A stretch of 64,000 bases of DNA from Loxodes magnus. Its lineage: Eukaryota; Ciliophora; Karyorelictea; Loxodida; Loxodidae. The notes beneath the pieces were generated by a model. It worked only from the letters and a program-made list of their open reading frames with translations. It made no database searches and was not told where the DNA came from. Below are positions 19,070-61,021 of the stretch, one piece after another (positions within the stretch are counted from its first letter, which is position 1; the number at the start of each line of letters is the position of its first letter). The stretch covers positions 434,001 through 498,000 of the forward strand of contig CAMPDV010000130.1 of the NCBI GenBank assembly GCA_946699065.1. The letters are read 5' to 3'. The translations under genes were made by a program, and so were the position numbers.

Positions 19070-20148
19070 AATTACAAAACATCTATAATTAATTGATTTT
19101 TTTATATTCATTTGACTTATATTATTCTATGAATTTATTATTTTTGATTTTAATAAATAAAAAACATTAAAAATAAAGTAAAATCGTTTTATTTTTGATT
19201 TTTATCTTTAAATATTAAAATTTTTATTTAGTTTTTAGAAATAATTTATATAAAAATATTTATTGCATCATGCTATAAAAAGCTAATAATATGCTTCGCT
19301 AAAGTATAATTAATTAATTTTGTCTAAATATTTAATTTAGCATAAATTTTCTAAATTTTATTTATAAATAAAACTCACTTTTTTACTAAATTTAGTTATA
19401 TAAACAAAATAATTTATTCAATCTTTTTTTAATTATTTAAATACTTATTAAAAAATATGTTAAATTTTAGAAATTTATTTTCATAGAATTGTTAAGCTAT
19501 AAAAAGGATAATATTTTGACTAGAAGAATACTATTTTCAATTTATTTTTCCGAAATAAAATTTTAATCTTATTGTGCTTGTTTTTTTTAATTATTTTTGT
19601 ACTTTTTACTCTTCATTTTCACAAATTATTATAATTATAATAGAATTATGTTAAAATAGTTAACTAATTAAAATTTTATTCTCTTTTCAAAAGTTTATCT
19701 AACTCTTCGAAAGAAAATTTATTTTTTGCTTTTTTGATCAAGATTGTTCAAAACAAATAATTATAAATTAACTAAAATATAACAAGCCTAGATGTTTAAT
19801 TTAGAAATAAAGGCCAAAAATTTTATTAATTATATTATTATTTTTCAGATTTTTCTCATATATCAAATTTCTCTATATCTATATCTTAAACTATAAATTA
19901 ATTTATAAATAAATAAATTTGATTATAGAGCGCGTAGCACTCTCGTTGGTGCGTAGCTCTTTAAAAAAAATGTTTCATACTGGCAAGAATGTTTATTACT
20001 GATAAAATTATCAGATACTGGTAGACCTTGTTCAATACTGGTATCAGTACTGATAAAAATGTTCAATACTGATATAATTTTAGAATACTTGTAATCTTTA
20101 ATACTTGCTGGAGGTCCAAGGACATGGGAGGATTGTTTCTCATTGCAT

Positions 20149-20370
20149 CACCAAAGCAGAGGATGACATATGTCAATTATGGGTACTTAAATTCCCCACC
20201 TCTGATGAAGCTCGCAATATTATTTCTTTTTCGTTCCAGTATTAAAAATAAACGAAGCCAAGTCAAGCCAGTGTCGAAGGTCTAAGAATCTCATGTCTCG
20301 AGGCCAAACCAAAGCAGAGGATGACATATGTCGATTATGGATACTTAACTTCCCCAACCTCTGATGAAGA
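20149..20370. repeat. Diverged direct repeat inside the insertion
   Basis: Two 62-base units beginning ACCAAAGCAGAGGATGACAT lie at 20149-20210 and 20309-20370. They differ at only a few positions. Each contains the palindrome GACATATGTC and ends CCTCTGATGAAG. They are separated by a unique GC-richer stretch. Confidence 0.8.
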
Positions 20371-20437
20371 TGACCTTGTTGTTCACCTTCGAACAACTAT
20401 GGCGGCTTTAAAAAAATATATAATATAATAATTGAAA

Positions 20438-20725
20438 AGATGGTGGGAGCTGAGAATGACTTTCGTGACAACATTTTCTGGTTTTATGGCTAGGAACAAG
20501 TTCCTTTCCTGTCGCTGAGAAACTCCCTGGTCAGAGTCATTTTCTGAAGGGAATACTGTCTTTGGGATTATCCATTCTTGGTAGGGGTTGAAGCCTGGCT
20601 GCTCATAGCAATGAACTCCCTAGTAGCTGTGCCTGGAGCACAACAGGATATCCCCGTTATTCCATAAAAAGAGAGCATCGGGTCGTGCAATCAGAAAGGA
20701 GTTTCCGGTCCAAAAACTTTTTTAG
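20438..20725 (-). repeat. GC-rich short element head (type 2)
   Basis: This is about 45% GC against about 23% around it. Shared features with the copies at 22383-22680, 50440-50625, 57815-58120 and 62810-63000 are a GGAACAAGTTCC palindrome, a TAGGGGYTTGAAG core, and GGATATCCCCGTTAT, which can form a hairpin. It is the 5' head of the 846 bp insertion when read on the minus strand. Confidence 0.65.
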
Positions 20726-21060
20726 TTGAAATTAATTAATAAATTAATTAATTTTCACTTTTTCGATCTATAATCATTTTGATTTTTATATTATTTTTTC
20801 AGTTTATTCAATTTAAAAACTGCAAAATGCTCGCGTTGTTTTATTCCTTTATTTTGTTTTAGATTTATAATTGATATTAATATTTTAGTTTTGTAGATAA
20901 AAAAGTTTAATTTATTATGTTTGTATTTTTAAATTCTATATTTATATATAAAGTATATTTGTTTATATTTTCTTTTAATAAAGTTTCTTTTATTAATTTT
21001 ATCATTTAATTACAAATTTAAACTTTTTAGTATTTTAACATTTTAAAATAAAAAATAGTG

Positions 21061-21600
21061 ATGGGTAATCTTTGTGCTAGAAACACTAAATAATAAGATA
21101 CTTTTTTGCTTAATTAAACTGTATTAAATGAAAAGACTATTACTGTTATTGGACCTGCAAGATCTGGAAAATCTAGTCTTATTTATTTTTTGAAAAATAG
21201 AGAAACAAAAAGATAATGTGAAATAACTTAATTTGTTGAATAAACAGTCATTCAGTTCGAAGGAAGCCTTTATGATATAAAAGAAGTTCCAGAAGAATAT
21301 AATCGTCAAATATTTACTGATGCATGAGTATATGTTTTAGATTAAAGCTAATAAACTGATTTTTCGGATTTAAATAATTTTTTAAGCAAGGCAAAAGCAA
21401 AAATACCTGTCCTAATTTTTTTAAACAAAAACGATTTAGTTTCTAACTCTTTAGATAATTCTCTAATAGAATTTTAACAAATAATATCGTACAAGATTCT
21501 AGAAAGTAATAATAAAGGAGATAATGTAATTGAAGGATTTAAATGGCTAGTAGAAATGCTAAAATAAGCTAAAAACAAAAAAATAGTTAAAAATATTTGA
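21061..21600 (+). CDS. Arf/Arl-like small GTPase, copy 3
   Basis: A 179-residue family member starting MGNLCARNTK. The P-loop is GPARSGKSS followed by LIYFLKN. Then come YDIKEVPEE instead of switch II, DAWVYVLDQS (TGA as Trp), FLNKND and SNNKGDNVIEGFKWL. I end it at TGA (21598-21600); if that is read as Trp, a TAA follows at 21616. The other module copy (58889-59428, minus) has exactly the same length and differs by very few residues. Confidence 0.85.
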
Positions 21601-21618
21601 TTTTTTGCTTTATTGTAA

Positions 21619-22382
21619 ATTTTCTAAGGTTAAATTATAATATCCTTAAAGAAACTTTAAATTAAAGATATACTGTATTTCTAAATAAAAAGTTAATAAA
21701 CTATTATTTATTTTATAAGCAATCTATTAAATAATCGCTTTAATTACTTAAAATAAATAAAAATTAATTTTAAATTTTTCATTTTTATTTTAAAAGCAAT
21801 TATAAAAGAAATTTACAAAAAGCAATATTAAATTCCTGAAAATATAAATAACTAAAATTTAAGGTAAAAAAGTAATTAAACTTTAATTTAAATAAAAATC
21901 ATAATAATAAATTATAAATATAATATAATTAAACAATTAAAAAAGAAGCAAACTTATTCTTTATAAAAATATACAAAATTTAAAGATTAGCAACTTTCCT
22001 TTCTATCTTTGAATATAAGAATTTTTTCGCAAAAAATTAAAAAATAATAATAAAAATTTTTAAAATGAAAATAGAATTTTTCAATGTTTAGAAATAAAGA
22101 AGAATTAGATGATTAATCTAATCAAATCTAACAAAAATTAATAAATTTTTATTGTGAAATTTATTAGAAATCTTTAAGTTTTATTGTGTAAAAATCTGCT
22201 ATTTAGAACTAATAATTAAATATAAATTTTTAATTAAAGAACAAATTTAAATATAAAATAAATAATTATTTCTCTTTAAATTTTTAATATAATATTTTTC
22301 TAAATTAAATAAGTTTAAATTTAGAAAAAAGAGATTTAATAAAATAATTTTCTTTACATTTAATAAATAAAAGCTATAATTA
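21619..22382. other. AT-rich spacer
   Basis: This is AT-rich sequence between GTPase copy 3 and the GC-rich element. It is matched by the other module copy at about 58125-58870. The matching minus-strand open frame near 22247-22447 overlaps the GC-rich repeat and is not supported as a gene. Confidence 0.4.
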
Positions 22383-22680
22383 AAAAGATGGTGGGAGCTG
22401 AGATTGACCTTCTGAATCATACTTTCTGGTTTTATGGCTAGGAACAAGTTCCTTTCCTGTCGCTGAGAAAGTCCCTGGTCAAAGTCAACCTTTGCAAGGG
22501 AACGCCTTCCTCTTGATTATCCACTCCTGGTAGGGGCTTGAAGCCTGACTGCCCATAGCGATGGAGCTCCCTGGCAGCTGCTTTTCGAAAGCAACAGGAT
22601 ATCCCCGTTATCCCATGAAGGGAGTGTTGGGGTCGTTAAACTGCAAGAAGTTACAGTCCAAAAACTCTTTTAGTTTAAAA
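22383..22680. repeat. GC-rich short element (type 2)
   Basis: This is a nearly full copy of the type 2 head, with the GGAACAAGTTCC palindrome and the hairpin-forming GGATATCCCCGTTATCC. It is present at the same place in the other module copy (57815-58120), so it predates the module duplication, unlike the 846 bp insertion. No 3' hairpin of the AGAGC type is attached here. Confidence 0.65.
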
Positions 22681-23189
22681 TTAAATTAATTAAATTAATA
22701 AATAAAAGCTATTTTAATAAAATTACAATTTTTAGTTTCAACATGATTCATTTTGTTCTTTTACAATTAAAAAAAGAAAAATTTAAGTTTATAAATTTAA
22801 GTGATCTAAGTGATTTAAATAGAATACAACTCCATGAAATTAAATTTATTTTTATGGAATATTTAAAAATTTTAAATTAAAATATCAATATTGCTCTAAA
22901 AGAAATACAGTTAAATAAATGTTTTACTACTTTTCTTATATTTAACTATAAATTAAAGAAATAAAAGGGAATATATTATTAAAAATTCACAGCTAATAAA
23001 TAAAATAAAAAAATTAAATTTTTGATTATGTAGTTAATTTATAGGTCAACTGAAAGATTAATGAATGCATAAGCTTTTTTTAAAGGAAGATAAACATCAA
23101 TTTGTTTAATAAGTAACTTAATAAACTTAAATTCAATAAAAAATTAAATAGAATAAATAATAATTAATAATAATTATATACTAAAAGTA

Positions 23190-23984
23190 ATAAAAAAGTT
23201 CTGCCTCCCCTGGGATCTCAACCAGGTACGTGCTGCCATTTTGGTTTCGTGGATGGATACCACGACCATTTTTTCCTTGTGGATGGTGTCCACGTTTCGT
23301 GCTCTGGTTTTGCAAAAATTCTTCTTTTAAAAACTCCTTACTAGTTTATATAAAGTTAGTTGATTTCCTTTCATCTTTTATTTTCTTCTTTTTTTATGAG
23401 GGTTTTCCATTCCCTGCAATATTTTAGTAAATACCACTTCGATTTACAATAAAAGCAACTTTTAACTTAGTTTTACTCTTTTCTTTTTGGAAGAATTTTT
23501 TTCTCTAGGACTCCAATTCGTTTTAACATTTCTTAGTTTGAACCTTCTCCATTTTTCATGCGATTTTGTTTAACTTTAGGTGATTGATCTTCGATTATCA
23601 TTCTATTTGATGTCTTAAAACTTTGTTACGATATAAATACAATTCTTGTTCACTTACTATTTTTTTTTCTATTATTTAATTTTTTAATATTATTATTTTG
23701 TTATTTAAATCTTCAATTTCATTCATAAAATTGCGAATTCTCTCTCCTTAATTAAATATAATTTCGTCAAAGTCAGATATTCTTTAATTTAGTTCCGAAT
23801 ATTGTTCCATTGTTATTAATACTGTTTCAGTTTAGTTTTCTTCCTTCTCTAGAATACCCACCATGATCTTACCTTGGGAGGAAGATCTCGATTCGTTCAA
23901 CTTTTCTTTTTGTCTAATATTCTTAACTGTTTTCTTTCTAATCTTTCTTGCTTAGTTCTTAGACATTCTTATTGAGTATTCCAT
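23190..23984 (-). CDS. Gag-like protein with CCHC-type zinc knuckle
   Basis: From the ATG at 23984 the protein starts MEYSIRMSKN. It has a basic N terminus, an acidic coiled-coil middle (around EQYQELNQRISDFDE) and a knuckle CFYCKSKWYLLKYC at 23416-23457 (CX2CX4YX4C, His replaced by Tyr). A seven-A run near 23500 keeps the coiled coil in frame with the knuckle; the copy at 56501 has six A and is out of frame. After the knuckle a two-base difference between copies shifts the C terminus. The best C-terminal reading (Gly/Arg/His-rich, ending in HVPGWDPRGGRT) is seen in the other copy. It probably coats RNA. No polymerase is linked. Confidence 0.55.
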
Positions 23985-24009
23985 TTTTTTTCCCAACCTT
24001 AAATAAAAT

Positions 24010-24720
24010 AAATTTGTTTGATATTTTATTGCCATTAATTTAAATTTTATCTATAACTAAAAAGTTATATTTAAAACATTAGTTATTTAAAGTATATATT
24101 TTACAATTATAAAACATTTAATGAGTGAAAAATGAAAATATTGTATTTTTAGCATTTATTTAAAAATAAAAAATTGCATTAAAAGTAAACAATATTTTAA
24201 ATAGATTTAATGAATATTTTAATTGCTATATATCATTTTAATTACGAAAAAGAAATTTCCATATTATTATGTTTTAGTTTTAGAATTAATTTAAAATAAA
24301 AATTTATTTTATTGGCTGCTTATTTTATTTTTTAGTGCTTTTAACAAATCTTTAAGCTTCAAAAAAGAAAGGAAAATATTAAAAAAATATCTTATTTATT
24401 TTAGATTTTTCTAATGATTAAAATTAAATTAAATTGCAATAAAATTTAGTTCTATTTTACTTTATTTTTTTCTTCAGATTTCTTTAATTTAAATTAATTA
24501 GTTAAATATCCTCAGTATAAAATAGAAAAAATTTAGCTATATTTTCTCTACGATAAATTATAGGAATCTTTATAATATTGATAAAATAAATTTAAACACT
24601 TTATAATCTAAAATATTAATTAAACTCTTATTTTGGTTATTTAAATTATAGCTTAGTTATCATAAAATTTTATTATTTAAAAGATAGTCAAATTATTAAA
24701 TTCTATTTTATATGATTAAA
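24010..24720. other. AT-rich spacer
   Basis: This is A/T-rich sequence between the Gag-like ORF and the W ORF. It is conserved in the other module copy at about 55765-56480. I see no gene or structured element in it. Confidence 0.4.
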
Positions 24721-25005
24721 TATGCTAACGAAAAGAATGGTACAAGGAGCATAGATCCAAGTTATTATTTTAGTTAACTACGCTCTTTGGATTTATAGCG
24801 ATGTGATGTACTATTTAATTATCCGAGAGAATGAGGCTTCGAAAAGAAGATTAGAATCTAACTTTTCGCAGTATCTACGTTGGATTACAGAGTCAATAGC
24901 GGCTTGATATTCCTTACAGATTAGACTAAGAAGATCAACTCCAAACACACCTTCACATGAGCACATTATGCCTTATACTTAATGACTTTGGAGATCAAAA
25001 TTCTG
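24721..25005 (+). CDS. Family W hypothetical protein
   Basis: The frame starting at 24721 reads NEKNGTRSIDPSYYF, then LFNYPREWGFEKKIR, then LDYRVNSGLIFLTDQTKKI. This aligns along most of its length with the W protein at 711 (minus): KGKSIRSLNLVF, WKDKGFYKEDE, VDYKVDSVLALFTNQTEKK. The ATG at 24722 is one base out of that frame, so either the start lies upstream or this copy has a 5' frameshift. It lies about 220 bases upstream of GTPase copy 4 on the same strand. Its function is unknown. Confidence 0.45.
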
Positions 25006-25223
25006 AGCTCTTAAACAAACCAAATTTTTAAATTTTAAGCTAATTGAATACAATTTTAAGCAAGTTCGTACTTTTATCTCTAAATTGAAGCATATTTTTA
25101 ATTTTAAAGTGATAGATATTAAAAAATAAATTAAAGGTATAAATTTAATTTTTAGCATTTTTATAATATTATCTATTTTATTTTTGTTCTAATCTTAGAA
25201 AATATTAAATTTAATGATTAAAT

Positions 25224-25724
25224 ATGGGATAACTTAATTGTAAAAAATGTTCAGAATAAGCTTAAACTGAAGTTAATTATAAAACTATTGCTTTTACTGG
25301 ATAGAAAGGAGCAGGAAAATCAAGTATTATTTACTTTTTAAAAAATGGAAAAATGAAAAAACATTGTAGTCCAACTAATGAAATTGAATAAACAGAAATT
25401 ATCTTCAACGGATTCCCATATTAAATAAAAGAAATCCCTGATTGATCATGATAATTATCCGCAGATGCATGAGTATTAGTTTTAGATCTTAGTAAAAACG
25501 AAAATTTTAAAGAGTTAGATCAATTTTTATAAAGAATTGGAAGTGAAATTCCTTTATTAATATTTCTAAACAAGAGTGATTTAGATTAGTTATATTTTTC
25601 AAGCTTCAAATTAGAGTAAAATAAACTAAAAAATTATAAAATTTTAAATACTAGCGGTAATGGTTTAAACATTGTAGAAGGATTTGAGTGGTTAACCCAA
25701 AAACTTAATGAGCGAAGCTTTTAA
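25224..25724 (+). CDS. Arf/Arl-like small GTPase, copy 4
   Basis: At 166 residues this is the shortest member, starting MGQLNCKKC. The P-loop is GQKGAGKSS followed by IIYFLKN. Then come YQIKEIPDW (TGA as Trp) in place of switch II, DAWVLVLDLS, FLNKSD and SGNGLNIVEGFEWL. It ends at TAA 25722-25724 right after the conserved block. The inverted copy at 54760-55260 is the same length and intact. Confidence 0.85.
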
Positions 25725-26160
25725 AAATTTTAATTTTTAACTTATCAAATAACTATTTATCATTAAAAACATTTAAAAAGGATGTAAAAATATAAAGGAT
25801 TTAAACTCTTCCCAATTCTACAAGTAAACTAAAATTGAATATAAGAATATTATGTTTTTGCTTTAATCTATCAATCTATTTTAAGAATGCTTTTGTAATC
25901 TCATTAATAAATCTATTTTTTATCATCAATTTCTTTTATTTTGAACAGATTAAGTAAGAATTTTCTAAATAACCTCTAAATAATCAGATTCCATAGTATT
26001 TTATTTTACATAGTAAAATAAAATAATAATTTTGATAAAAATAATTACTTAAAAGACATAATATTTAGTTAATAAAATATTATAATTAAAAATAATTTTT
26101 CTAGAATTAAATAGAATCATAGCTTTAATTAAATTACTGTATTTTAATTTCTTTATAAAG
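25725..26160. other. AT-rich spacer
   Basis: This AT-rich DNA is shared with 54310-54755 in the other module copy, including a TTTTACATAGTAAAATAAAA palindrome-like stretch near 26000. There is no supported gene. Confidence 0.4.
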
Positions 26161-26164
26161 CAAT

Positions 26165-26560
26165 TTTATGGTTTCTTCCTATTTCTTTTCTTTCAATCTT
26201 TCAATCTTTCCATGATTTTTTTATTAATATCTTTAGTTATAGTCCTTTTCTTGTAGGTTAAAAACTATCACTACTAGATAAGTAATGATCTCTTACTCTT
26301 TTTAAATTAAACTGCACGAACTGCTTCAGATATAACGATTTTCTATTGTTTCTTAGGCTTTTTTTATGTTTTATAAGTCTTATGTGTTTATTTCTTTTTC
26401 TTTCCATTTTTCGTTACAATTTTTTTGCTTTTAAGTTTATTAAGAATAATTTAATATAAGAAAAATTGAAAAAAATTAACATTTTTATTTTTTCTCCTAT
26501 TTTTTGAAGGTGGCAAAAAGTCTTTATTGAATATTCCAGCTTTTTTATTTTAATAATTTC
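26165..26560 (-). pseudogene. Basic coding-like fragment, deleted in the other module
   Basis: From an ATG at 26407 the minus strand reads MERKRNKHIRLIKHKKSLR and stays Lys/Arg-rich with protein-like composition. In the other module copy (54170-54310) two internal blocks of this region are missing, so it is under no visible constraint there. It may be a relic of one of the Gag-like ORFs; no motif proves this. Confidence 0.3.
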
Positions 26561-26680
26561 TATTATCCAATAAATTATTTATTAAAAAAAGAAAAATTAG
26601 TTCATCGTTTTTTTCAATTCTAAGTTAAATCTTATTTAAATTATCTTAAGTGGATTTTTAATAAGAAAATTTAAAAATCA

Positions 26681-27290
26681 ATGATTAAGACTAAAAAATT
26701 AAAATATTTTGTTTTAAATCAAAGAACGAAAACAACAAAATCACTTGCTGATCAAGGTGTGTCTAAACTTAAAATATAATAGCTTTAATCCATAATTGAT
26801 TTAAGTAGTGCTATAAGCTCTTAATCTTAAATTTCAATTTGAGATAAGATCGAAAATGTTTGAGACATGCTGATACTGCAAGAAAATAAGAGAATTAGCA
26901 ATACATTTCTAATTTTTCGAAAAAAACTATGCTAGAGTTATAAAGTCAATCAATTATTAAAAAAATTTACTATTATTTTTGAATTGAAACTATATAGTAA
27001 AAAACATTTCTAAAGCATGAAATCAACATAAGTATCGATAAAACGAAACTGAAGCATGAATAATTCTTATTTAGAGATTATCCTTGTATGAGAAAGAAAT
27101 TTTATAGATATGAAGAAAAAATTTAAATCTATGAGATATCTATTGCAGAATAAATTATCTCATGAAAGGAAAAAGTAGAAAACTGGTGGCGAAACTTTAA
27201 AAGACTAACTTAATGAGATGGCAAAACTATTTAAACATCTATTAATATTTTATTATTCTTTTATAAATGAATATTTAAAAATAAATTAAT
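26681..27290 (+). pseudogene. Gag-like remnant
   Basis: The ATG at 26681 opens MIKTKKLKYFVLNQRTKTTK and a coiled-coil-like stretch. Near 26870 one frame gives WYCKKIREL, a probable remnant of the knuckle seen at 11410-11451 (YWYCKWPGH). Another frame further on gives KHEINISIDKTKLKHEQ. The frames do not join, and the other module copy (52890-53510, minus) is similarly broken. Confidence 0.4.
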
Positions 27291-27624
27291 TATAGATTTT
27301 TTTATAATAAAATGTTAATTTAAGAAGAAGAAATCACTTTAATAAAAATGTTAATGAAATGAAGTTACTGATATAAATCAGATAATTCATTTTAATTATC
27401 TTCAAAAGGTTCAAGCATCGTTCTTTCCATCTTCCAACTTTTCCCCGCTATTTCTTATGCTTTCTTATCGTTCTTCTTTAGGTTCCAATCAATTATCTGT
27501 GCTTTTTTCTATAATTTAAAATATTTTTTTCGTAGATTCTTATGAAAAATTTTTATCTGAAGACCTGCATACATTTACTTATGAGAAGTGAACTGCTAGT
27601 TTATGTAGAGTTAATCGTAAGTTC
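27291..27624 (-). other. Loop end without counterpart in module copy 2
   Basis: This stretch separates the shared module from the right arm. On the minus strand at about 27360-27510 it encodes a protein-like fragment (KAQIIDWNLKKNDKKAQEIA, then MERTMLEPFEDNQ). Its absence from palindrome B suggests an insertion or a remnant of the palindrome junction. Confidence 0.35.
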
Positions 27625-27889
27625 AAAAGTTAATTTAATAAAATAAAAATATTTACATACTAATTCAGTTTAAATAATATTTAAAGTAAGATTGATTTAT
27701 ATTTATTCAATAATATACATTTTTTAAATTTATTTTTTATATTACAAATATAATTACTTTTTAGAATAAAATTAATTGTATTAGATTCACTTACTTTTAT
27801 TTTTTTGCTTTTATATAATAATTATTTCTTCTCAATTTTTAAATAATTTTATAAATTTATTCTATTTATATTATTTAGAGATAAATTAG

Positions 27890-28640
27890 ATTTTTCTTTA
27901 AAGAATATTTCTTATTAAAAATGTTTATAATAATCAAGTTTTTATATTAAAAATTAACTTATTTTTTATAAATTAAAATTAGCATTTTACCTCATTTCAA
28001 TTTAACTGTTTTTGTTCCTGAAAAATGTTTTAAAATTTGTAATTTCTAAATCTTCTCGATATTTTAAATTAAAATTTAGATTCTTTTAATATTCCTTAAA
28101 GAATATACGTTCACTTTTTTATACGATTTATACTTTTTTCTTGCTTAATATATTAGATTAATGATCCTTGTTGTACTATAAATTTATTATTTTGTATTTT
28201 ATATTAATTCCCTAGCTTTAAACTAAAAATTTTTGTGGAAGAATCTTCTTCTAAATATTTTTAATTACAATACAAAAGCAAGTAGTTCAATCTATTTCTA
28301 TATTTATTTTTTTCCTACTCATATGGAATTTAGATTGTAGTAATGCTTGAAACTTTCTTGCATTTTCTAATTGAGCAATCATAATCATGTCAATGAAAGA
28401 AATTTTCGTATTGATACTCATTCTTATGATTCAAATATTTTTGATTGCAAAGCTTGATTAAGGAAGTTATATTTCATTATTTAAAAGCCTCGAATATTAT
28501 AAAAGGAAATTCGCAATAACTAAACGTTTTTAATTACTAGCTTCTAACTTCTAACTTAAGCTTTTTTATTAATTATTTTTCTATTTATTTGCTTTTATAA
28601 TTTATAAGAAAGATTCGCTAATTTGTTTAATAAAATCCAT
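27890..28640 (-). pseudogene. Copy of the Cys/His hypothetical gene
   Basis: This is the inverted copy of 18054-18800, with its ATG at 28638-28640. It keeps the flanking HWHDYDCSIRKC residues but the first Cys of the cluster is Phe (TGC to TTC). Whether it is functional cannot be decided. Confidence 0.35.
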
Positions 28641-28779
28641 CTAAAGTTTTAACATTTATAAAAGGGATAGGAAAAATGTCATAAAAAATAAAAAAATGTT
28701 TTTTTTACCGCCAAAAACATAGGAGTCAATCGATATAAGCAAGTAACAATAAGAATGCTCATTTTTAAGTAGAAAATCC

Positions 28780-28985
28780 AACGAGAAGTTATTTTTAATG
28801 TTTTATCTTCTCCGCTTAATTTTTAGGCAATAGCAAACCACTATCAGCTCTTCAATCTAACTTAGCGTTTTAAAAGACCGAACTCCATTCTTCCTTATCG
28901 AAGCTTCATCTTCCAGGAATAATTAAATTGATATGATGCATCGCGAAACAGATATGTGAAGAATTAGAAAGAAAATTTATATGAA
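28780..28985 (-). pseudogene. Family W fragment (right-arm copy)
   Basis: This is the reverse-complement copy of the fragment at 4990-5200. It abuts the junction where the 12.7 kb segment is missing. Confidence 0.35.
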
Positions 28986-29139
28986 ATAGGAATTTAAAAA
29001 CTCTTAAAAAATATGTCCCAACATTTTTTATTAAAAAGTAGGAACGTGGACTGGTAGCATTCAATAAGTGCTAAAATTTATAATTAAGAAAGATTTTAAA
29101 TAAATTATCTTTTCTTAAATCTGAAGCATAAAATATTAA

Positions 29140-29440
29140 AATTACTTGATTTATAGAGTGCATAGCAACTCAATAATGAGCGACTCTTTTAATAAAACTT
29201 TTAAGTCTTAAAAATTATTCAATTAAAATTTCCCTTGAAAAAGCTGCTTTCAAAAGGCCGTTGTCAGAATGATACCCTAAGAGACCTTAGTATCTGGTAT
29301 CTTTCAACTTAAATACTATTCGATGCCTCAAGTTATTTCGTTCTTGGTACCGCTAAGATTCTTGAATAATTATATGCTCAAAGGATACTTCCCTGTACTA
29401 AATATTTATCTTTCTCCGTTGGATAATCTCCTTCCTATTT
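29140..29440 (-). repeat. Short element with 3' hairpin (head type 1), right-arm copy
   Basis: This is the inverted copy of 4520-4815. The hairpin is at 29155-29187 and the 5' end (AATAGGAAGGAG on the minus strand) is near 29440. Its presence in both arms dates it before the arm duplication. Confidence 0.6.
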
Positions 29441-29849
29441 AAATAAAAATATATTTTCATAATTAAATAAATAAAACTAAACTAAAAATATTGCAAATAA
29501 CATTTTTTTATTTAATTTGAAAAAGTTAAATAAAATAGCTGTAAAATAAAATTTAAAATAATAAGTTTTTTCAGCATTTTTAAATAATTAAGCTATATTT
29601 GCAAAAAATATTTATTATAATCTAACTTATTTGTAATAAAAATGTAAAAGATTAAAAATATTTATTTTATTTAATTAAAGCAATTTTAAATAAATTTTTG
29701 ATAAAATTGTTAGTAATTTTTCATTAAAGTTTCTATTAATTTTGAATGATAATATCTTTTTAAATTAAGTTTTCTTCGAAAATAAATCTAAAACTTTTAA
29801 ATTTTTCTAATTATTTAAATCTTAAAATAAATAAAATTAATGTATTTCA

Positions 29850-49537: not shown

Positions 49538-49539
49538 AT

Positions 49540-50625: not shown

Positions 50626-51124
50626 CTTCCTTTTTACTAATTTTATTATTTTCTAGCTATATGATTGTATATTTTTATTATATCCTACAAGTATTTTATC
50701 CATTGGTAAAAGAATTTAAAATGAATATTCCATAAATTCTATTTTTCCTTTATGACATTTATAATATCAAAATATCTAGTTTTTTTCTCTTAAAGTATTA
50801 TATTAATCTTTTAATTTTTGCTAATTAATAAATATTCTTTAAACATATTAAAATATTTATTTCCATTTTTTCTTATTTTAATAAACTTCAATTTACTTTG
50901 TTCTTTCAAGCTTTTTAGAAATATTTCTCATTCTTTTTGATAAAATAAATAAAGCATTAATTTCTTTTACTAAGATAATAAAACTTGCTAAATAAACTTT
51001 TATTTCTGACTTTTATTATTAAAAATAGAAAATGCTTGTTATAATTTCACAGTCTTGTTTATTTAAATACAATAATACTTAATATACATAATATCTTTTT
51101 ATCTTAAATTTCTATTATATATAG

Positions 51125-51430
51125 ATAGGTTGGAATAATCTTCCAACTGAATATGGCTTAAACTCCGATACCAGAAAGTGCACATAGGCGAAAAACCAAG
51201 CAAGAATCTTGGTAAAGTCAAGAGAAGAAAAGACTGAAGAGGCATCAAGCAGTATTAATGATAAAAGATTCCAGATACTAAGGTCTCTTAGGGTAGCATT
51301 CTGATTTCAGCCTAAAGAAGACAAGACTCACAAGGGAATGCTAGCACTGTTGAAGATTTCAGCGAGGAAATTTATCCTTTTAAAATCTTTATTAAAGAGC
51401 TGCGCGCCTCGGAGGTACTACGTGCCCCAT
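51125..51430 (+). repeat. Short element with 3' hairpin (head type 1)
   Basis: The core TTCCAGATACTAAGGTCTCTTAGGG is preserved, with CTAAG/CTTAG able to pair. The 3' hairpin region at 51396-51428 has lost the final GCTCT (GTGCCCC instead). It lies immediately beyond the 3' hairpins of the minus-strand element B copy, so the two elements meet tail to tail. The copy is at 61990-62310. Confidence 0.55.
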
Positions 51431-51470
51431 AAACATATTTATTATAATAATAATAATATTAATTTTAAGT

Positions 51471-51529
51471 ATTCCGTTTTAGGGATTTCAAACCCCGTCA
51501 GGAATACAGCAGTTCATGCTCCCTGCTGT
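51471..51529 (-). terminator. Double hairpin at the 3' end of element B
   Basis: Two adjacent stems: ACAGCAG/CTGCTGT with a 10-base loop (51506-51529) and ATTCC/GGAAT enclosing an inner GGG/CCC stem (51471-51505). The same pair, with the outer stem changed to TTTTCC/GGAAAA, is at 8950-9009. It is probably the RNA 3' structure recognised for retrotransposition; a role as transcription terminator is not shown. Confidence 0.6.
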
Positions 51530-52410
51530 TAAATATAAAATTTCGGGTCGCCCAATTTTAGCAAGATTGGGAACTCGGATGCTTCCAGGTTTTCCCTCCT
51601 TTAACTTGCCTTGGTTTCATCTTAATCTTGTATATTGAACCATCCGGGTTGCAATACATTCTTTTCATTCTTGCTTCTTCTTTTTTCTTCTTTTGTTGTT
51701 CTTTTATCCAATATTTCCTTATTTCTATTAGAATTTCTAACAATTCCGATAAAAATGTCATACGCTTCCACAACAGAAGCATTTTTTTTAATTTTGAATT
51801 ATTTTCCTTGATTTGTTTGCTCTTTCTAGGCTTCGATTTCCATTTGTATAGCTCCAGTTTCGCTTTACTCTTTCTTAAAAATTTACAATTTCTCTTCTAC
51901 TTTTCCGAGTCTATTATCCAGTTCAGTCTGTTTCTAAAGCTAATTTTAGGATTAGTTAGTCTGACTTTGTGAGATATTCCAAAAGGCGTTAAGATCTCTT
52001 TCCTAGGACATAAGTCTTGACTCAATTCCTTCTGCTAGGTCTAGCTTTACCATCAGCATATCATTGTCCTTCTTCAATCTCTTGACCTCTTCCTGGAGGT
52101 TCAGTACCACTTTGATGAGCTACTCCATGCTCATCTGGCCAGAAGGGTTGAACTCTGATACTTCCTGATGGAGAACAGACTTCATCTGTTTCCTCAGTTT
52201 CTCGCTTGAGGTTGGAATTTCCATGTGTATATTCTTCAAGATTGGCTTTCGTTCGTTTAGTTAGATTTCAAGTCTTTAGTTCAGTGTTGGTTAAGGTTGT
52301 GATAGAGAAGATTGTTAAGATTATTAAAACTTTTTTTCTTGCTTCCTCCCTTCCTTTTTGGCTTAGAAAGAGATGTATAGAAGCCTGACTTGAAATCTTC
52401 AACCATTTTT
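51530..52410 (-). mobile_element. Element B coiled-coil ORF (left-arm copy)
   Basis: This is the reverse-complement copy of the element at 61022-61890 and near identical to it. The differences include G-to-A changes in the Lys/Glu run (KKKKEEAR here, KKKKKKAR there). It contains an N-terminal Lys/Ser-rich part, the coiled coil and the C-terminal RMKRMYCNPDGSIYKIK block, then the double hairpin. Confidence 0.6.
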
Positions 52411-52439
52411 TTAATTTAAACTTATTTATTATTTATTAA

Positions 52440-52800
52440 TAAAAAATATGGGTTAACGCTACTGTCAGTTTGGCTTTTACTTAACCACTTTAAGAAGATA
52501 AGCCTAATTTATTCAAGGTTCTCGCTAGCATCAAAGCTCTAGTTCCAAGTCAAATTCTCTGCTTTCTCATGCCTTATATCAGACAGAAGATAAAGAGGAA
52601 GATGTAATTACTTTGAGGAGGCTTTCAATTTTCTTAAGCATACATCTAATTTTAGAAGATTTTTTCATCTGAATAAATAAAGAATTATGATTACATAAAA
52701 CTTCCCATTTGGAGAAACAGAAATGCCTCAAGAAGGAATATGATTGAATAAAGAATACAACAACAAAAAAATTAAATTAAGAGAACACTAAAAAATTGTT
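52440..52800 (+). repeat. GC-richer unit duplicated in palindrome B arms
   Basis: A plus frame from the ATG at 52449 reads MGQRYCQFGFYLTTLRRQ and continues moderately protein-like. The same unit is at about 60600-60990 (minus). It shares TTCTCCAAATGGG-type sequence with the element at 41946-42340. Coding is uncertain; it may be an element head. Confidence 0.35.
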
Positions 52801-52889
52801 TTAAACTTAATTCTTGACTAACCAATATACAGTGATATCACGTTAATATATTTATTATTTATTTATACTAAATAGAAATTAAAAAACAA

Positions 52890-53510
52890 TAAACTTTATG
52901 AAAGAATAATAGCTGATTAAGTGTTTTTTTCATTTCATTAAGTTAGTCTTTTAAAGTTTTGTATTTAGTTTTCCTCTTTTTCCTTTCATGGGATAATTTA
53001 TTTTGCAATAGATATCTCAAAGATTTAAAAATTCACTTCATATCGAAAAAATTTCTTTTTCATGCAAGGATATTCTCTAAATAAGAATTATTCATGCTTC
53101 AGTTTCATTTTATCGTTACTTATGTTGATTTCATGCTTTAGAAATACTTTTTACTATATAATTTCAATTCAGAAATATAGTAGATTTTTTAATAATTGAC
53201 TGACTTTATAACTCTAGCATTGTTTTTTTCAAAAATTTAGCTATTTATTGCTAATTCTCTTATTTTCTTGCAATATCAGCATATCTCAAAACAATTCGTT
53301 CTTTAATTCAAGATTAAAATTAAGGTTAAGAGCCTATAGAATTGCTTAGATCAATTAAAGTTAAAGCTCTTATTTTTTTAAGTTTAGACAGACCTGTGAT
53401 CAGCAAGTGATTTTGTTGTTTAAGTCTTTAATTTGTTTCAAAGCATTTTAATTTTTTAGCCTTATTCATTGATTTTTAAATTATCTTCTGAAAAATTCAC
53501 TTAAGATAAT
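52890..53510 (-). pseudogene. Gag-like remnant (module copy 2)
   Basis: This is the inverted copy of 26681-27290, with the WYCKKIREL knuckle relic still visible near 53260. Substitutions and indels relative to the other copy are frequent, consistent with neutral decay. Confidence 0.4.
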
Positions 53511-53570
53511 TTAAATAGGATTTAACTGAGAATTGACAAAAATGATGAAATTATTTTAAAATAAATAAAT

Positions 53571-54100
53571 TAAATTAGCGTGGTATCACCTTTGCTTGGT
53601 TCCCCACGAAAAAATAAAGAAACTAAATTTAATTATTAATAATAGGCTATAAATGTTTCTAGCTTCATCTGGGCTCTTTGATTTTTATCTTCTTCTCTCC
53701 GTTTTTATAATCAAAATTGATTGCCTTCTCTCTTTAAATTTTTGTAATTCTTCTAAAGGCTGAAGTTAGAGAACATTCCAATATTTGCGTCAAATAACCC
53801 AATTAGGTTAAGTTCTTCTAAATATTAGTTATTAGTGATCTCAGTCATGTCTTTGTTGCTTTCTATATTCCATATCAGAATAGCGACATGAAAAATCAGG
53901 ATAACTCTGAAATCTGATTTTTGTTCCCTCTAGTCGACCTCTCGTATCGATAGAGAGTACCCTCAAACAAATAAGGGTTATCACACAATGGGCCCACCTT
54001 TACTTGTTTGTGGTGACATCTATTGCAAGAGTACTTGAAGTGAAGTTATGACTGCACCAGATTACCTACTCATTCGACTAGAAACCAGATTCCATTTAAA
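53571..54100 (-). mobile_element. About 530 bp insertion with candidate target duplication (head type 3)
   Basis: It is absent from the matching place in module copy 1 (near 26610). It is flanked by AAATAAATAAA at 53559-53569 and 54101-54111. Read on the minus strand it starts with the type 3 head (GTAGGTAATCTGGTGCA, AGGGTACTCTCTATC). It carries a 70-residue ORF (53636-53848) and ends in a hairpin, CGTGG...CCACG, near 53578-53610. The hairpin resembles the AGAGC hairpins in position only, with different sequence. Confidence 0.65.
53636..53848 (-). CDS. Small ORF inside the 530 bp insertion
   Basis: From the ATG at 53848 it reads MTEITNNQYLEELNLIGLFD and then a Lys/Arg/Asn-rich stretch ending LETFIAYY at TAA (53636). 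It gives 70 residues with only a few reassigned codons. Its composition is protein-like but no family was recognised. The other type 3 element (41946-42340) has no clear equivalent, so it may be captured or chance sequence. Confidence 0.35.
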
Positions 54101-54759
54101 AAATAAATAAAGTAATAATATTTTATTAGACAATAAAAATTATTAAAATTAAAGAAAAAATGGAAAAATTAAATAATTACCTTTTACCACATTCTAAAAA
54201 TAGGAGAGAAAATAAAAAATGGAAAATAATTCATCACTTTATCTAACTTTAATTATTCTTAATAAGCTTAAAAAAAGAGTAAGAGAATATTGAAAGAAAA
54301 GAAATAGGAAGAAACCATAAAATTGCTTTATAAAGAAATTAAAATACAGTAATTTAATTAAAGCTATGATTCTATTTAATTCTAGAAAAATTATTTTTAA
54401 TTATAATATTTTATTAACTAAATATTATGTCTTTTAAGTAATTATTTTTATCAAAATTATTATTTTATTTTACTATGTAAAATAAAATACTATGGAATCT
54501 GATTATTTAGAGGTTATTTAGAAAATTCTTACTTAATCTGTTCAAAATAAAAGAAATTGATGATAAAAAATAGATTTATTAATGAGATTACAAAAGCATT
54601 CTAAAATAGATTGATAGATTAAAGCAAAAACATAATATTCTTATATTCAATTTTAGTTTACTTGTAGAATTGGCAAGAGTTTAAATCCTTTGTATTTTTA
54701 CGTCTTTTTTAATGCTTTTAATGATAAATAGTTATTTGATAAGTTAAAAAATTAAATTT

Positions 54760-55260
54760 TTAAAAGTTTTGCTCATTAAGTTTTTGGGTTAACCACTCAA
54801 ATCCTTCTACAATGTTTAAGCCATTATTGCTAGTATTTAAAATTTTATAATTTTTTAGTTTATTGTAATCTAATTTGAAGCTTGAAAAATATAACTAATC
54901 TAAATCACTCTTGTTTAGAAATATTAATAAAGGAATTTCACTTCCAATTCTTTATAAAAATTGATCTAACTCTTTAAAATTTTCGTTTTTACTAAGATCT
55001 AAAACTAATACTCATGCATCTGCGGATAATTATCATGATCAATCAGGGATTTCTTTTATTTCATATGGTAATCCGTTGAAGATAATTTCTGTTTATTCAA
55101 TTTCATTAGTTGGACTACAATGTTTTTTCATTTCTCTATTTTTTAAAAAGTAAATAATACTTGATTTTCCTGCTCCTTTCTATCCAGTAAAAGCAATAGT
55201 TTTATAATTAACTTCAGTTTAAGCTTATTCTGAACATTTTTTACAATTAAGTTATCCCAT
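54760..55260 (-). CDS. Arf/Arl-like small GTPase, copy 4'
   Basis: This is the module 2 copy of 25224-25724: 501 bases, intact, with MGQLNCKKC start, GQKGAGKSS P-loop, DAWVLVLDLS, FLNKSD and EGFEWL blocks. Only small changes are seen, for example the C terminus NEQNF against NERSF. Confidence 0.83.
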
Positions 55261-55479
55261 ATTTAATCATTAAATTTAATATTTTCTAAGATTAGAACAA
55301 AAATAAAATAGATAATATTATAAAAATGCTAAAAATTAAATTTATACCTTTAATTTATTTTTTAATATCTATCACTTTAAAATTAAAAATATGCTTCAAT
55401 TTAGAGATAAAAGTACGAACTTGCTTAAAATTGTATTCAATTAGCTTAAAATTTAAAAATTTGGTTTGTTTAAGAGCTC

Positions 55480-55761
55480 AGAATTTTGATCTCCAAGATC
55501 ATTAAGTATAAGGCATAATGTGCTCATGTGAAGGTGTGTTTGGAGTTGATCTTATCAGTCTAATCTGTAAGGAATATAAAACGCTATTGACTCTGTAATC
55601 CAACGTAGATATTGCGAAAAGTTAGATTCTAATCTTCTTTTCGAAGCCTCATTCTCTCGGATAATTAAATAGTACATCACATCGCTATAAATCCAAAGAG
55701 CGTAGTTAACTAAAATAATAACTTGGATCTATGCTCCTTGTACCATTCTTTTCGTTAGCAT
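55480..55761 (-). CDS. Family W hypothetical protein (module copy 2)
   Basis: This is the inverted copy of 24721-25005, preserving the conserved block LDYRVNS. One base difference near 55563 relative to the other copy may affect the C-terminal frame. It again lies upstream of a GTPase (55260) on the same strand. Confidence 0.4.
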
Positions 55762-56500
55762 ATTTAATCATATAAAATAGAATTTAATAATTTGACTATC
55801 TTTTAAATAATAAAATTTTATGATAACTAAGCTATAATTTAAATAACCAAAATAAGAGTTTAATTAATATTTTAGATTATAAAGTGTTTAAATTTATTTT
55901 ATCAATATTATAAAGATTCCTATAATTTATCGTAGAGAAAATTAAGCTAACTTTTTTCTATTTTATACTGAGGATATTTAACTAATTATTTTTAAATTAA
56001 AGAAATCTGAAGAAAAAAATAAAGTAAAATAGAACTCAATTTTATTGCAACTTAATTTAATTTTAATCATTAGAAAAATCTAAAATAAATAAGATATTTT
56101 TTTAATATTTTCCTTTCTTTTTTTGAAGCTTAAAGATTTGTTAAAAGCACTAAAAAATAAAATAAGCAGTCAATAAAATAAATTTTTATTTTAAATTAAT
56201 TCTAAAACTAAAACATAATAATATGGAAATTTCTTTTTCATAATTAAAATGATATATAGCAATTAAAATATTCATTAAATCTATTTAAAATATTGTTTAC
56301 TTTTAATGCAATTTTTTTATTTTTAAATAAATGCTAAAAATAAAATATTTTCATTTTTCACTCATTAAATGTTTTATAATTGTAAAATATATACTTTGAA
56401 TAACTAATGTTTTAAATATAACTTTTTAGTTATAGATAAAATTTAAATTAATGGCAATAAAATATCAAACAAATTTATTCTGTTTAAGGTTGGGAAAAAA

Positions 56501-57295
56501 ATGGAATACTCAATAAGAATGTCTAAGAACTAAGCAAGAAAGATTAGAAAGAAAACAGTTAAGACTATTAGACAAAAAGAAAAGTTGAACGAATCGAGAT
56601 CTTCCTCCCAAGGTAAGATCATGGTGGGTATTCTAGAGAAGGAAGAGAACTAAAATAATACAGCATTAATAACAATGGAACAATATTAGGAACTAAATTA
56701 AAGAATATCTGACTTTGACGAAATTATATTCAATTAAGGAGAGAGAATTCGCAATTTTATGAATGAAATTGAAGATTTAAATAACGAAATAATAATATTA
56801 AAAAATTAACTAATAGAAAAAAAAAAGTAAGTGAACAAGAATTGTATTTATAATCGTAAAAAAGCTTTAAGACATCAAATAGAATGATAATCGAAGATCA
56901 ATCATCTAAAGTTTAACAAAATCGCATGAACAATGAAGAAGGTTCAAACTAAGAAATATTAAAACGAATTGGAGTCCTAGAGAAAAAATTCTTCCAAAAA
57001 GAAAAGAGTAAAACTAAGTTAAAAGTTGCTTTTATTGTAAATCGAAGTGGTATTTACTAAAATATTGCAGAGGGAATGAAAAATCCTCATAAAAAAAGAA
57101 GAAAATAAAAGATGAAAGGAAATAAACTAACTTTATATAAACTAGTAAGGAGTTTTTAAAAGAAGAATTTTTGCAAAACCAGAGCACGAAACGTGGACAC
57201 CATCCACAGGGAAAAAATGGTCGTGGTATCCAATCCATAAAACCAAAATGGCAGCACGTACCTGGTTGAGATCCCAGGGGAGGCAGAACTTTTTA
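56501..57295 (+). pseudogene. Gag-like zinc-knuckle ORF (module copy 2)
   Basis: This is the copy of 23190-23984, with its ATG at 56501. It has the same acidic coiled coil, and the knuckle CFYCKSKWYLLKYC is at 57027-57068. A six-A run near 56984 (seven in the other copy) throws the knuckle out of frame with the N terminus. Downstream of the knuckle this copy has the better frame: a basic region, then RGHHPQGKNGRGIQ and HVPGWDPRGGRT. The 3' end carries CCTGG/CCAGG pairing around 57258-57276. Each copy is broken at a different place. Confidence 0.55.
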
Positions 57296-57814
57296 TTACT
57301 TTTAGTATATAATTATTATTAATTATTATTAATTATTATTTATTCTATTTAATTTTTTATTTAATTTAAGTTTATTAAGTTATTTATTAAACAAATTGAT
57401 GTTTATCTTCCTTTAAAAAAAGCTTATGCATTCATTAATCTTTCAGTTGGCCTATAAATTAACTACATAATCATAAAATTTAATATTTTATTTTTATTTA
57501 TAAGCTGTGAATTTTTAATAATCTATTCCCTTTTATTTCTTTAATTTATAGTTAAATAGAAGAAAAGTAGTAAAACATTTATTTAACTGTATTTCTTTTA
57601 GAGCAATATTGATATTCTAATTTAAAATTTTTAAATATTCCATAAAAATAAATTTAATTTCATGGAGTTGTATTCTATTTAAATCATTTAGATCACTTAA
57701 ATTTATAAACTTAAATTTTTCTTTTTTTAATTCTAAAAGAACAAAATGAATCATGTTGATACTAAAAATTGTAATTTTATTAAAATAGCTTTTATTTATT
57801 AATTTAATTTTAAA

Positions 57815-58120
57815 CTAAAAGAGTTTTTGGACTGTAACTTCTTGCAGTTTAACGACCCCAACACTCCCTTCATGGGATAACGGGGATATCCTGTTGCTTT
57901 CGAAAAGCAGCTGCCAGGGAGCTCCATCGCTATGGGCAGTCAGGCTTCAAGCCCCTACCAGGAGTGGATAATCAAGAGGAAGGCGTTCCCTTGCAAAGGT
58001 TGACTTTGACCAGGGACTTTCTCAGCGACAGGAAAGGAACTTGTTCCTAACCATAAAGCCAGAAAGTATGATTCAGAAGGTCAATCTCAGCTCCCATTAT
58101 CTTTTTAATTATAGCTTTTA
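57815..58120. repeat. GC-rich short element (type 2), module copy 2
   Basis: This is the inverted copy of 22383-22680, with the GGAACAAGTTCC palindrome and GGGATAACGGGGATATCC stem intact. Confidence 0.65.
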
Positions 58121-58888
58121 TTTATTAAATGTAAAGAAAATTATTTTATTAAATCTCTTTTTTCTAAATTTAAACTTATTTAATTTATAAAAATATTATA
58201 TTAAAAATTTAAAGAGAAATAATTATTTATTTTATATTTAAATTTGTTCTTTAATTAAAAATTTATATTTAATTATTACTTTTAAATACCAGATTTTTAC
58301 ATAATAAAACTTAAAGATTTCTAATAAATTTCACAATAAAAATTTATTAATTTTTGTTAGATTTGATTAGATTAATCATCTAATTCTTCTTTATTTCTAA
58401 ACATTGAAAAAATCTATTTTCATTTTAAAAATTTTTATTATTATTTTTGTAATTTTTTGCGAAAAAATTCTTATATTCAAAGATAGAAAGGAAAGTTGCC
58501 AATCTTTAAATTTTGTATATTTTTATAAAGAATAAGTTTGTTTCTTTTTTTAATTGTTTAATTATATTATATTTATAATTTATTATTATGATTTTTATTT
58601 AAATTAAAGTTTAATTACTTTTTTACCTTAAATTTTAGTTATTTATATTTTCAGGAATTTAATATTGCTTTTTGTAAATTTCTTTTATAATTGCTTTTAA
58701 AATAAAAATGAAAAATTTAAAATTAATTTTTATTTATTTTAAGTAATTAAAGCGATTATTAATAGATTGCTTATAAATTAAATAATAATTTATTAACTTT
58801 TTATTTAGAAATACAGTATATCTTTAATTTAAAGTTTCTTTAAGGATATTATAATTTAACCTTAGAAAATTTACAATAAAGCAAAAAA

Positions 58889-59428
58889 TCAAATATTTTT
58901 AACTATTTTTTTGTTTTTAGCTTATTTTAGCATTTCTACTAGCCATTTAAATCCTTCAATTACATTATCTCCTTTATTATTACTTTCTAGAATCTTGTAC
59001 GATATTATTTGTTAAAATTCTATTAGAGAATTATCTAAAGAGTTAGAAACTAAATCGTTTTTGTTTAAAAAAATTAGGACAGGTATTTTTGCTTTTGCCT
59101 TGCTTAAAAAATTATTTAAATCCGAAAAATCAGTTTATTAGCTTTAATCTAAAACATATACTCATGCATCAGTAAATATTTGACGATTATATTCTTCTGG
59201 AACTTCTTTTATATCATAAAGGCTTCCTTCGAACTGAATGACTGTTTATTCAACAAATTAAGTTATTTCACATTATCTTTTTGTTTCTCTATTTTTCAAA
59301 AAATAAATAAGACTAGATTTCCCAGATCTTGCAGGTCCAATAACAGTAATAGTCTTTTCATTTAATACAGTTTAATTAAGCAAAAAATTATCTTACTATT
59401 TAGTGTTTCTAACACAAAGATTACCCAT
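58889..59428 (-). CDS. Arf/Arl-like small GTPase, copy 3'
   Basis: This is the module 2 copy of 21061-21600: 540 bases, intact, with MGNLCARNTK start, P-loop GPARSGKSS, DAWVYVLDQS, FLNKND and EGFKWL. It ends at TGA (58889-58891). Confidence 0.83.
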
Positions 59429-61021
59429 CACTATTTTTTATTTTAAAATGTTAAAATGCTAAAAAGTTTAAATTTGTAATTAAATGATAAAATTAATAAA
59501 AGAAACTTTATTAAAAGAAAATATAAACAAATATACTTTATATATAAATATAGAATTTAAAAATACAAACATAATAAATTAAACTTTTTATCTACAAAAA
59601 TAAAAAATTAATATCAATTATAAATCTAAAACAAAATAAAGGAATAAAACAACGCAAGCATTTTGCAGTTTTTAAATTGAATAAACTGAAAAAATAATAT
59701 AAAAATCAAAATGATTATAGATTGAAAAAGTGAAAATTAATTAATTTTAGTTTAAGATTAAGATTAAGATATAGAGAAATTTGATGTATGAGAAGAATCT
59801 GAAAAATAATAATTCAAATAATAAAATTTTAGACATTATTTCTAAATTTAATATCTAGGCTTATTATACTTTAGTTAATTATTATTATTTGTTTTGTACA
59901 ATTTTGATCAAAAAAGGAAAAATTACATTTTCTTTTAAAAAGTTAGATAAACTTTTAGTAAGAGAATAAAATTTTAAATTAGTTAACTATTTTAACATAA
60001 TTCTATTATAATTATAAATATTTGAGAAAACGAAGAGTAAAAAGTACAAAAATAATTTAGAAAAAAAGTAAAAATAAGATTAAAATTTTATTTCGGAAAC
60101 TTAAATTTAAAATACTATTCTTCTAGTAAAAATATTTCATTTTTACTAGCTTAACAATTCTATGAAAATAAATTTCTAAAATTTAACATATTTTTTAATA
60201 AGTATTTAAATAATTAAAGAAAGATTGAATAAATTATTTTGTTTAAATAACTAAATTTTAGTTAAAAAGTGAGTTTTATTTATAAATAAAATTTAGAAAA
60301 TTTATGCTAAATTAAATATTTAGACCAAGTTAATCAATTATACTTTAGCGAAGCATATTATTAAATTTTTATAACATGAGGTAATAAATATTTTTATATA
60401 CATTTTTTCTGAAAACTAATAAAAATTTTAATATTTAAAGATAAAAATCAAAAATAAAATGATTTTTCTTGATTTTTAGTGTTTTTGATTTATTAAAATC
60501 AAAAATAATAAATCCATAGAATAAAATAAGTCAAATTGTATTGTTTTTTAATTTCTATTTAGTATAAATAAATAATAAATATATTAACGTGATATCACTG
60601 TATATTGGTTAGTCAAGAATTAAGTTTAAAACAATTTTTTAGTGTTCTCTTAATTTAATTTTTTTTCTTGCCTTCTTTATTCAATCATATTCCTTCTTGA
60701 GGCATTTCTGTTTCTCCAAATGGGAAGTTTTATGTAATCATAATTCTTTATTTATTCAGATGAAAAAATCTTCTAAAATTAGATGTCTGCTTAAGAAAAT
60801 TGAAAGCCTCCTCAAAGTAATTACATCTTCCTCTTTATCTTCTGTCTGATATAAGGCATGAGAAAGCAGAGAATTTGACTTGGAACTAGAGCTTTGATGC
60901 TAACGAGAACCTTGAATAAATTAGGCTTATCTTCTTAAAGTGGTTAAGTAAAAGCCAAACTGACAGTAGCGTTAACCCATATTTTTTATTAATAAATAAT
61001 AAATAAGTTTAAATTAAAAAA

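Follow-up and report, generated by a model that had tools for sequence, protein, structure and literature searches.

Two large palindromes with a shared loop in a Loxodes magnus contig are consistent with a duplicated segment rearranged by two inversions

We analyzed a stretch of 64,000 nucleotides of a Loxodes magnus contig (CAMPDV010000130.1 of assembly GCA_946699065.1, positions 434,001 to 498,000; hereafter the window), in which two large palindromes enclose the same ~8-kb loop module (R) in opposite orientations. All four arm-loop joints lie at the same two loop ends, agreeing to about six bases, and the inversion of two intervals in silico converts the window into one colinear direct duplication. 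We therefore regard it as somewhat probable that a head-to-tail duplicated segment A-R-B', situated among clustered Arf-like GTPase genes, underwent two nested inversions in the genome (A and B are the flanks that form the arms; B' is the reverse complement of B). No special palindrome-making element is needed for two palindromes to share a loop, because inversions in a duplicated segment yield shared loop ends automatically.

Arms, loops and joints of the two palindromes

The coordinates of the arms and loops (Table 1) are based on a BLAST comparison of the window with itself. In palindrome 1, flank A matched its inverted copy in an outer part (1-5205 versus 28761-33962) at 97.97% identity, with 98 mismatches versus 5 indel events, and in an inner part (17922-19069 versus 27625-28771) at 98.7% identity, with 15 mismatches versus 1 indel event. 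In palindrome 2, flank B matched over 49428-52897 versus 60533-64000 at 99.2% identity (23 mismatches versus 3 indel events). This recovered both pairs of inverted arms that a sequence-only reading of the window had claimed, together with its 12.7 kb indel, 5206-17921, which is present in the left arm A only. The overall divergence between arms was 0.7-1.9% (B 0.66%, A 1.3-1.9%). Since substitutions dominate this divergence, a simple fold-back of a single read is unlikely as the source of the arms, as the sequence-only reading had also argued. The arm alignments run to window edges 1 and 64000, and the arm lengths are thus lower bounds; because the arms reach both edges, a circular or hairpin-ended molecule was considered as a further option. 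Arms A and B had no mutual match at the self-BLAST thresholds used; each of them carries copies of one GTPase family.

The two loops were confirmed to be inverted copies of each other. The R core (20741-26200 versus 54286-59747; 5.46 kb) matched at 97.5% identity, or 98.2% without gaps, and the two ends of R matched at 90% (19110-19906 versus 59736-60536) and 84% (26593-27297 versus 52850-53557). Inverted matches of kilobases at 84-99% identity far exceed chance. Divergence within R was 1.8% in the core versus 9% and 16% at the ends, and the core was richer in indels than the arms, with 97 mismatches versus 20 indel events.

The joints cover all combinations of the two flanks with the two loop ends. 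R-left (GACTTA...) is preceded by A1 and B2, and R-right (AT[A/G]AAAG...) is preceded by A2 and B1, with the copies numbered as in Table 1. TTT is present at each joint, and the three bases ahead of TTT differ between B1 and B2. The two R-left joints and the ends of arms A and B were taken from the alignments, whereas the two R-right joints were matched by eye on the printed letters, as the path of the aligner continued into the arms with gaps. Arm A reaches the loop at 19113 on one side and at 27265 on the other if the private ~0.3 kb piece in A copy 2 is set aside; the 48-column match between the two tips scored 59, versus a maximum of 50 in 300 shuffles. In B, the 126 bases just outside R (52765-52890) are identical in both copies; this low divergence right outside R may reflect conversion between the arms. 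The arm-loop boundaries are sharper than previously drawn, with the loops at 19114-27264 and ~52898-60532. The agreement of the joints also bears out the earlier argument that chance fold-backs are unlikely to pick the same loop twice.

A colinear duplication after two in silico inversions

Next, two intervals of the window were inverted in silico, namely R2 and the interval S (B1' X' A2, where X is the spacer between the palindromes). The count was restricted to high-scoring segment pairs (HSPs) with a length of 600 bp or more and an identity of 83% or more, and left out shorter or weaker ones. The contig as given contained 16,829 bp of large inverted repeats and 0 bp of direct repeats. With S inverted alone, 9,829 bp were direct and 6,984 bp inverted, and with both S and R2 inverted, 16,851 bp were direct and 0 bp inverted. 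The alternative path, in which loop 1 and then the whole R1..R2 interval were inverted, resulted in 16,850 bp direct and 0 bp inverted. In the rearranged coordinates, HSPs cross the former joints (59874-64000 versus 26593-30737 and 52839-53695 versus 19053-19906). The rearranged sequence is one colinear duplication, 1-30737 versus 46203-64000, interrupted by the 12.7 kb gap and smaller gaps, and the two copies are colinear on both paths after inversions with breakpoints at the joints. Inversion and rearranged haplotypes, both named as options by the sequence-only reading, are viable explanations. The orientation of the GTPase genes fits an ancestral head-to-tail array: of the 15 matches in a hidden Markov model (HMM) scan, which are not independent, 8 were on the plus strand in the contig, 12 after the S flip, and 14 after both flips.

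On the duplication-inversion reading, the ancestral order would have been A1 R1 B1' X' A2 R2 B2'. R2 (7.6 kb) would have inverted first, and the 25.6 kb S would then have flipped between the now-inverted 8-kb repeats R1 and R2, giving the observed order A1 R1 A2' X B1 R2' B2'. On an equivalent path, R1..R2 (41 kb) would invert, and loop 1 would then flip by exchange between its own arms; we infer the order of the events. The flip of S probably proceeded by homologous recombination between R1 and R2, and later gene conversion may have homogenized A, B, and the R core. The four joints would arise together because the inversions act within two copies of A-R-B'. The palindromes would then be by-products, and R would be the stretch between shared breakpoints and no palindrome maker. 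The flips may lie in the cell or in the assembly, as the inverted repeats R could either recombine or mislead an assembler. The two copies would be either paralogues in tandem or a pair of alleles placed one after the other.

Several points weigh against this reading. Two inversions are required. Such flips would undo any pair of inverted-arm palindromes that have a loop in common, which makes the flip test a check of consistency; the main weight of the evidence rests on the shared joints, including the R-right pair matched by eye. As duplicated GTPase copies are not independent, the 15 matches reduce to about 10 units, about nine of which point in one direction after both flips (p ~0.02, own arithmetic). 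Divergence is ~1% immediately outside R and 9-16% immediately inside it, a steeper step than a simple model would give, and the breakpoint-divergence pattern to which it is compared below has exceptions that the source itself names (PMC10411593). A 48-bp inverted similarity near the R ends of palindrome 1 could alternatively represent terminal repeats of R. Purifying selection on both GTPase copies was not seen in the four duplicated pairs (synonymous to nonsynonymous changes 4:19 over ~404:1648 sites). Finally, the window shows neither the outer ends of the arms nor other copies of R.

Inversion by non-allelic homologous recombination (NAHR) between inverted repeats and inverted segmental duplications are known processes. 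Similarly, the inverted R copies in the window (core 98%) flank 25 kb, and flipping this interval together with R2 undoes the palindromes; the difference is that recombination in the window is deduced from one contig sequence. For many inversion polymorphisms, exchange is described as lowest near the breakpoints and highest in the middle of the inversion, with exceptions (PMC10411593). As in the Drosophila polymorphisms of that account, the ends of R are more diverged than its middle, whereas here, the low divergence outside the breakpoints continues right up to the B joint. The willow W chromosome is described as carrying two consecutive large palindromes with genes in high-identity arms, the arms of such sex-chromosome palindromes being homogenized by gene conversion (PMC7023750). 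There, conserved stretches are common to four arms, whereas here, the loops are shared and the arms differ. Our literature search returned no ciliate report that joins tandem duplication, inversion, haplotypes, and inverted repeats.

Other explanations of the shared loop

A possible though clearly less probable explanation is an artefact of assembly or phasing. In this case, A-R-B' would occur in both alleles or in tandem copies, with R either way round, and neither palindrome would exist as a molecule. The artefact could result from a copy switch inside the 98%-identical 5.4 kb R core or from the wrong orientation being given to the 25 kb that separate the inverted copies of R. Consistent with this, the core of R has the similarity needed to mislead an assembler, while the ends share 84-91% identity; the arm differences could be allelic, and a plain colinear order returns on flipping. 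Furthermore, the published assembly of the karyorelict Loxodes magnus is described as collapsing overlaps at 96% identity, for a diploid genome with ~0.6% heterozygosity (PMC11441545). Even so, both orientations of R are still required. HiFi-type reads have lengths of 10 kb or more, and if the window was built from such reads, which is a guess, they can span the 5.5 kb core.

A further, unlikely reading combines palindromes that exist as molecules with an 8-kb R that flips repeatedly between fixed ends in the living ciliate. If true, the repeated flipping of R would reorient GTPase genes and generate palindromic chromosomes by exchange within R.

The proposal of the sequence-only reading that the module itself is mobile, or a breakage element that drives palindrome formation, was not supported. 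In this version, R would be a mobile cassette inserted into two palindrome centres, or a breakage or replication element that makes palindromes, and we consider it improbable. The presence of the same R ends in two contexts would fit such an element. To this can be added the inverted similarity of 48 bp near the R ends of palindrome 1, with a score of 59 that was reached by 0 of 300 shuffles (maximum 50). However, this similarity is more simply assigned to arm A, as its tip. In three further comparisons of tips with arms, 19, 58, and 78 of 300 shuffles did as well. In palindrome 2, the ends of R had no inverted similarity beyond that of shuffles (187 of 300 as good), so terminal inverted repeats were not seen in both copies of R. 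Six-frame Pfam scans with translation table 27 covered 8.0-17.9, 21.6-26.6, 34.0-39.0, and 49.8-54.8 kb (~25 of 64 kb), which took in positions 21601-26590 in loop 1 and, in loop 2, the first 1.9 kb (52898-54790). No RVT, DDE, or other transposase, reverse transcriptase, or mobile-element domain was found in the scanned ~25 kb, in scans of limited sensitivity: a GTPase fragment at 9.0 kb went unreported in 8.0-13.0 kb, and in loop 1, the known GTPase copy at 25.2 kb scored below the cutoff. One match of these scans, to the B-box, exceeded its cutoff; those to Kelch, RING, RsgA_GTPase, Chlam_PMP, and DUF6969 did not. In addition, R contains GTPase genes, and it would take a coincidence for R to have inserted at the symmetry centres of two palindromes.

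It is highly improbable that fold-back (template switching) occurred twice, independently, around an R that had been duplicated long before. Fold-backs with a spacer are known, but both events would have needed to share their two loop ends to within about six bases, for which our own arithmetic gives ~1e-6 to 1e-5. Palindromic chimeras from multiple displacement amplification (MDA) are hardly tenable: although palindromic long reads are described as pervasive after MDA (PMC13265396), such arms should be identical, as should those of a raw-read fold-back except for sequencing errors, whereas here they differ by the divergence given above, mainly in substitutions, and by 12.7 kb and 0.3 kb pieces.

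Gene content, genetic code and private pieces

The GTPase frames were first found by comparing the window with itself, and the HMM scan then gave 15 copies or fragments (~10 independent). Pfam Arf exceeded its curated cutoff of 22.3 bits in all six copies tested, with RsgA or Roc having a better E value in three of them. P-loop and NKxD motifs are present in these frames once TAA and TAG are read as glutamine (Q) and TGA as tryptophan (W); the G3 region is divergent or altered, and several copies have an MG..C-like start. The window carries a locally amplified, divergent family of Arf-like GTPase genes. None of the four duplicated pairs compared contained an internal indel, and their synonymous to nonsynonymous changes were 0:2, 1:5, 2:2, and 1:10. 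A protein database search with one GTPase returned 172 candidates, none of them at E ≤ 0.01.

The GC content of the window is 22.1% (16-29% in 2-kb steps). A standard or bacterial reading of the genes was rejected, with no open reading frame (ORF) of 200 amino acids under the bacterial code. For ORFs under translation table 6, the lengths alone were unconvincing versus shuffles; 9 of 10 such ORFs had no Pfam family, and the remaining one had two sub-cutoff Kelch-type matches. The code was settled by the conserved GTPase frames, in which TAA and TAG encode Q and TGA encodes W, as in NCBI code 27. At the conserved aromatic position of the DAW motif, TGA occurs in five of eight loci, TGG in two, and TTT (F) in one, and in the duplicate copies it is TGA in four of four. 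TGA probably also serves as a stop codon, to judge by the ends of the frames. The code suggests a karyorelict-like ciliate. Karyorelicts, among them Loxodes magnus, are described as using it, and the Loxodes magnus genome as repeat-rich and diploid (PMC11441545); Condylostoma and Amoebophrya sp. Kv are described as using similar codes (PMC12005148). Unlike in the Loxodes magnus genome account (PMC11441545), no domain of a long interspersed nuclear element (LINE) was found in the scanned parts of the window. ARAGORN with the bacterial code found no transfer RNA in the window, and Rfam gave 0 matches at gathering scores.

An 11-bp direct repeat (TACTTAAAAAT) borders the 12.7 kb piece on both sides and is present once in A copy 2. 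The simplest reading of this difference is a deletion in A copy 2, and an insertion in A copy 1 is possible. The frame at 13667-15427 within this piece has a TRIM-like architecture, although the B-box alone passes its Pfam cutoff, and Kelch (9.9e-4) and RING (0.039) remain under theirs. The private piece at 27324-27624 had no second copy within the window; it looks like a short retro-insertion, or else like sequence that the other copy lost by repeat-mediated deletion.

The ~330-bp repeat could be a short interspersed nuclear element (SINE) or a non-coding RNA gene; the GC content of its first copy is 41% versus 22% for the window. In Rfam, the repeat region gave one sub-threshold match (22.9 bits versus a gathering score of 83). 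Exact patterns from the repeat had 0 hits in viral contigs (31 bases) and 0 hits in genome contigs (24 bases), in a collection that may not include the genome of the window itself. Two frames in the B arms, 51354-52085 and 61343-62074, are relatively GC-rich (35-36%). The B-arm frames have a relative with 69% identical DNA at 8686-9044 in the 12.7 kb piece, and the longer B-arm frame (61030-61914) matched no Pfam family.

Table 1. Features of the 64-kb window (positions within the window)
Feature	Coordinates	Strand	Evidence	Remarks
Flank A copy 1 (A1)	1-19113	+	Self-BLAST; inner end from alignments	Left arm of palindrome 1, reaching window edge
Loop R copy 1 (R1)	19114-27264	+		Two GTPase genes, two 330-bp GC-rich repeats
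Flank A copy 2 (A2)	27265-33963	-		Right arm of palindrome 1; holds private ~0.3 kb piece
Spacer X	33964-49427	.		Single copy within window; either end may belong to longer arms
Flank B copy 1 (B1)	49428-52897	+	Self-BLAST	Left arm of palindrome 2
Loop R copy 2 (R2)	52898-60532	-		Inverted versus copy 1; two GTPase genes and a single 330-bp repeat; end positions uncertain by ~six bases at most
Flank B copy 2 (B2)	60533-64000	-	Self-BLAST	Right arm of palindrome 2, reaching window edge
Arf-like GTPase, A copy 1	2303-2809	+	HMM scan; Pfam Arf 3.3e-08	Partner 31150-31656 (-) in A copy 2
Arf-like GTPase, A copy 1	3583-4107	+	HMM scan; Pfam RsgA_GTPase 1.1e-07, Arf 1.2e-06	Partner 29853-30377 (-) in A copy 2
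Arf-like GTPase, R copy 1	21061-21585	+	HMM scan; RsgA_GTPase 2.1e-07, Arf 7.6e-06	Partner 58904-59428 (-) in R copy 2
Arf-like GTPase, R copy 1	25224-25730	+	HMM scan; Pfam Arf 5.3e-07	Partner 54754-55260 (-) in R copy 2
Arf-like GTPase, outer part of B copy 1	49007-49510	-	HMM scan; Pfam Roc 4.2e-07, Arf 3.8e-06	Partly in spacer X
Partner of GTPase 49007-49510	63918-63998	+		Truncated by window edge
GTPase copies	43035-43535, 44674-45216		HMM scan	Spacer X
Partial GTPase matches	7604-7816, 9041-9289		HMM scan	12.7 kb piece
Partial GTPase match	46289-46600		HMM scan	Spacer X
12.7 kb piece	5206-17921	+		A copy 1 only; two GTPase fragments and RING/B-box/Kelch-like frame
RING/B-box/Kelch-like frame	13667-15427	+	Table 27; Pfam zf-B_box E 7.6e-10, above cutoff	
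Private ~0.3 kb piece	27324-27624			In A copy 2; bounded by ~14-bp direct repeats (TTAAATTAAC(A)TTTT)
~330-bp GC-rich repeat	20428-20752, 22376-22703, 57791-58112			In R
~330-bp repeat, shorter versions	50405-50597, 62832-63024			In both B arms
Frame in spacer X	near 37 kb		Chlam_PMP match below threshold	

One duplicated segment and two inversions, whether real or made by assembly, can thus mimic two unrelated palindromes with a shared loop. The check for shared breakpoints combined with the flips helps to separate such cases from a palindrome-forming element and is usable on other contigs. For the organism, the window documents that Arf-like GTPase genes are locally clustered in a ciliate that reads TAA and TAG as Q and TGA as W.

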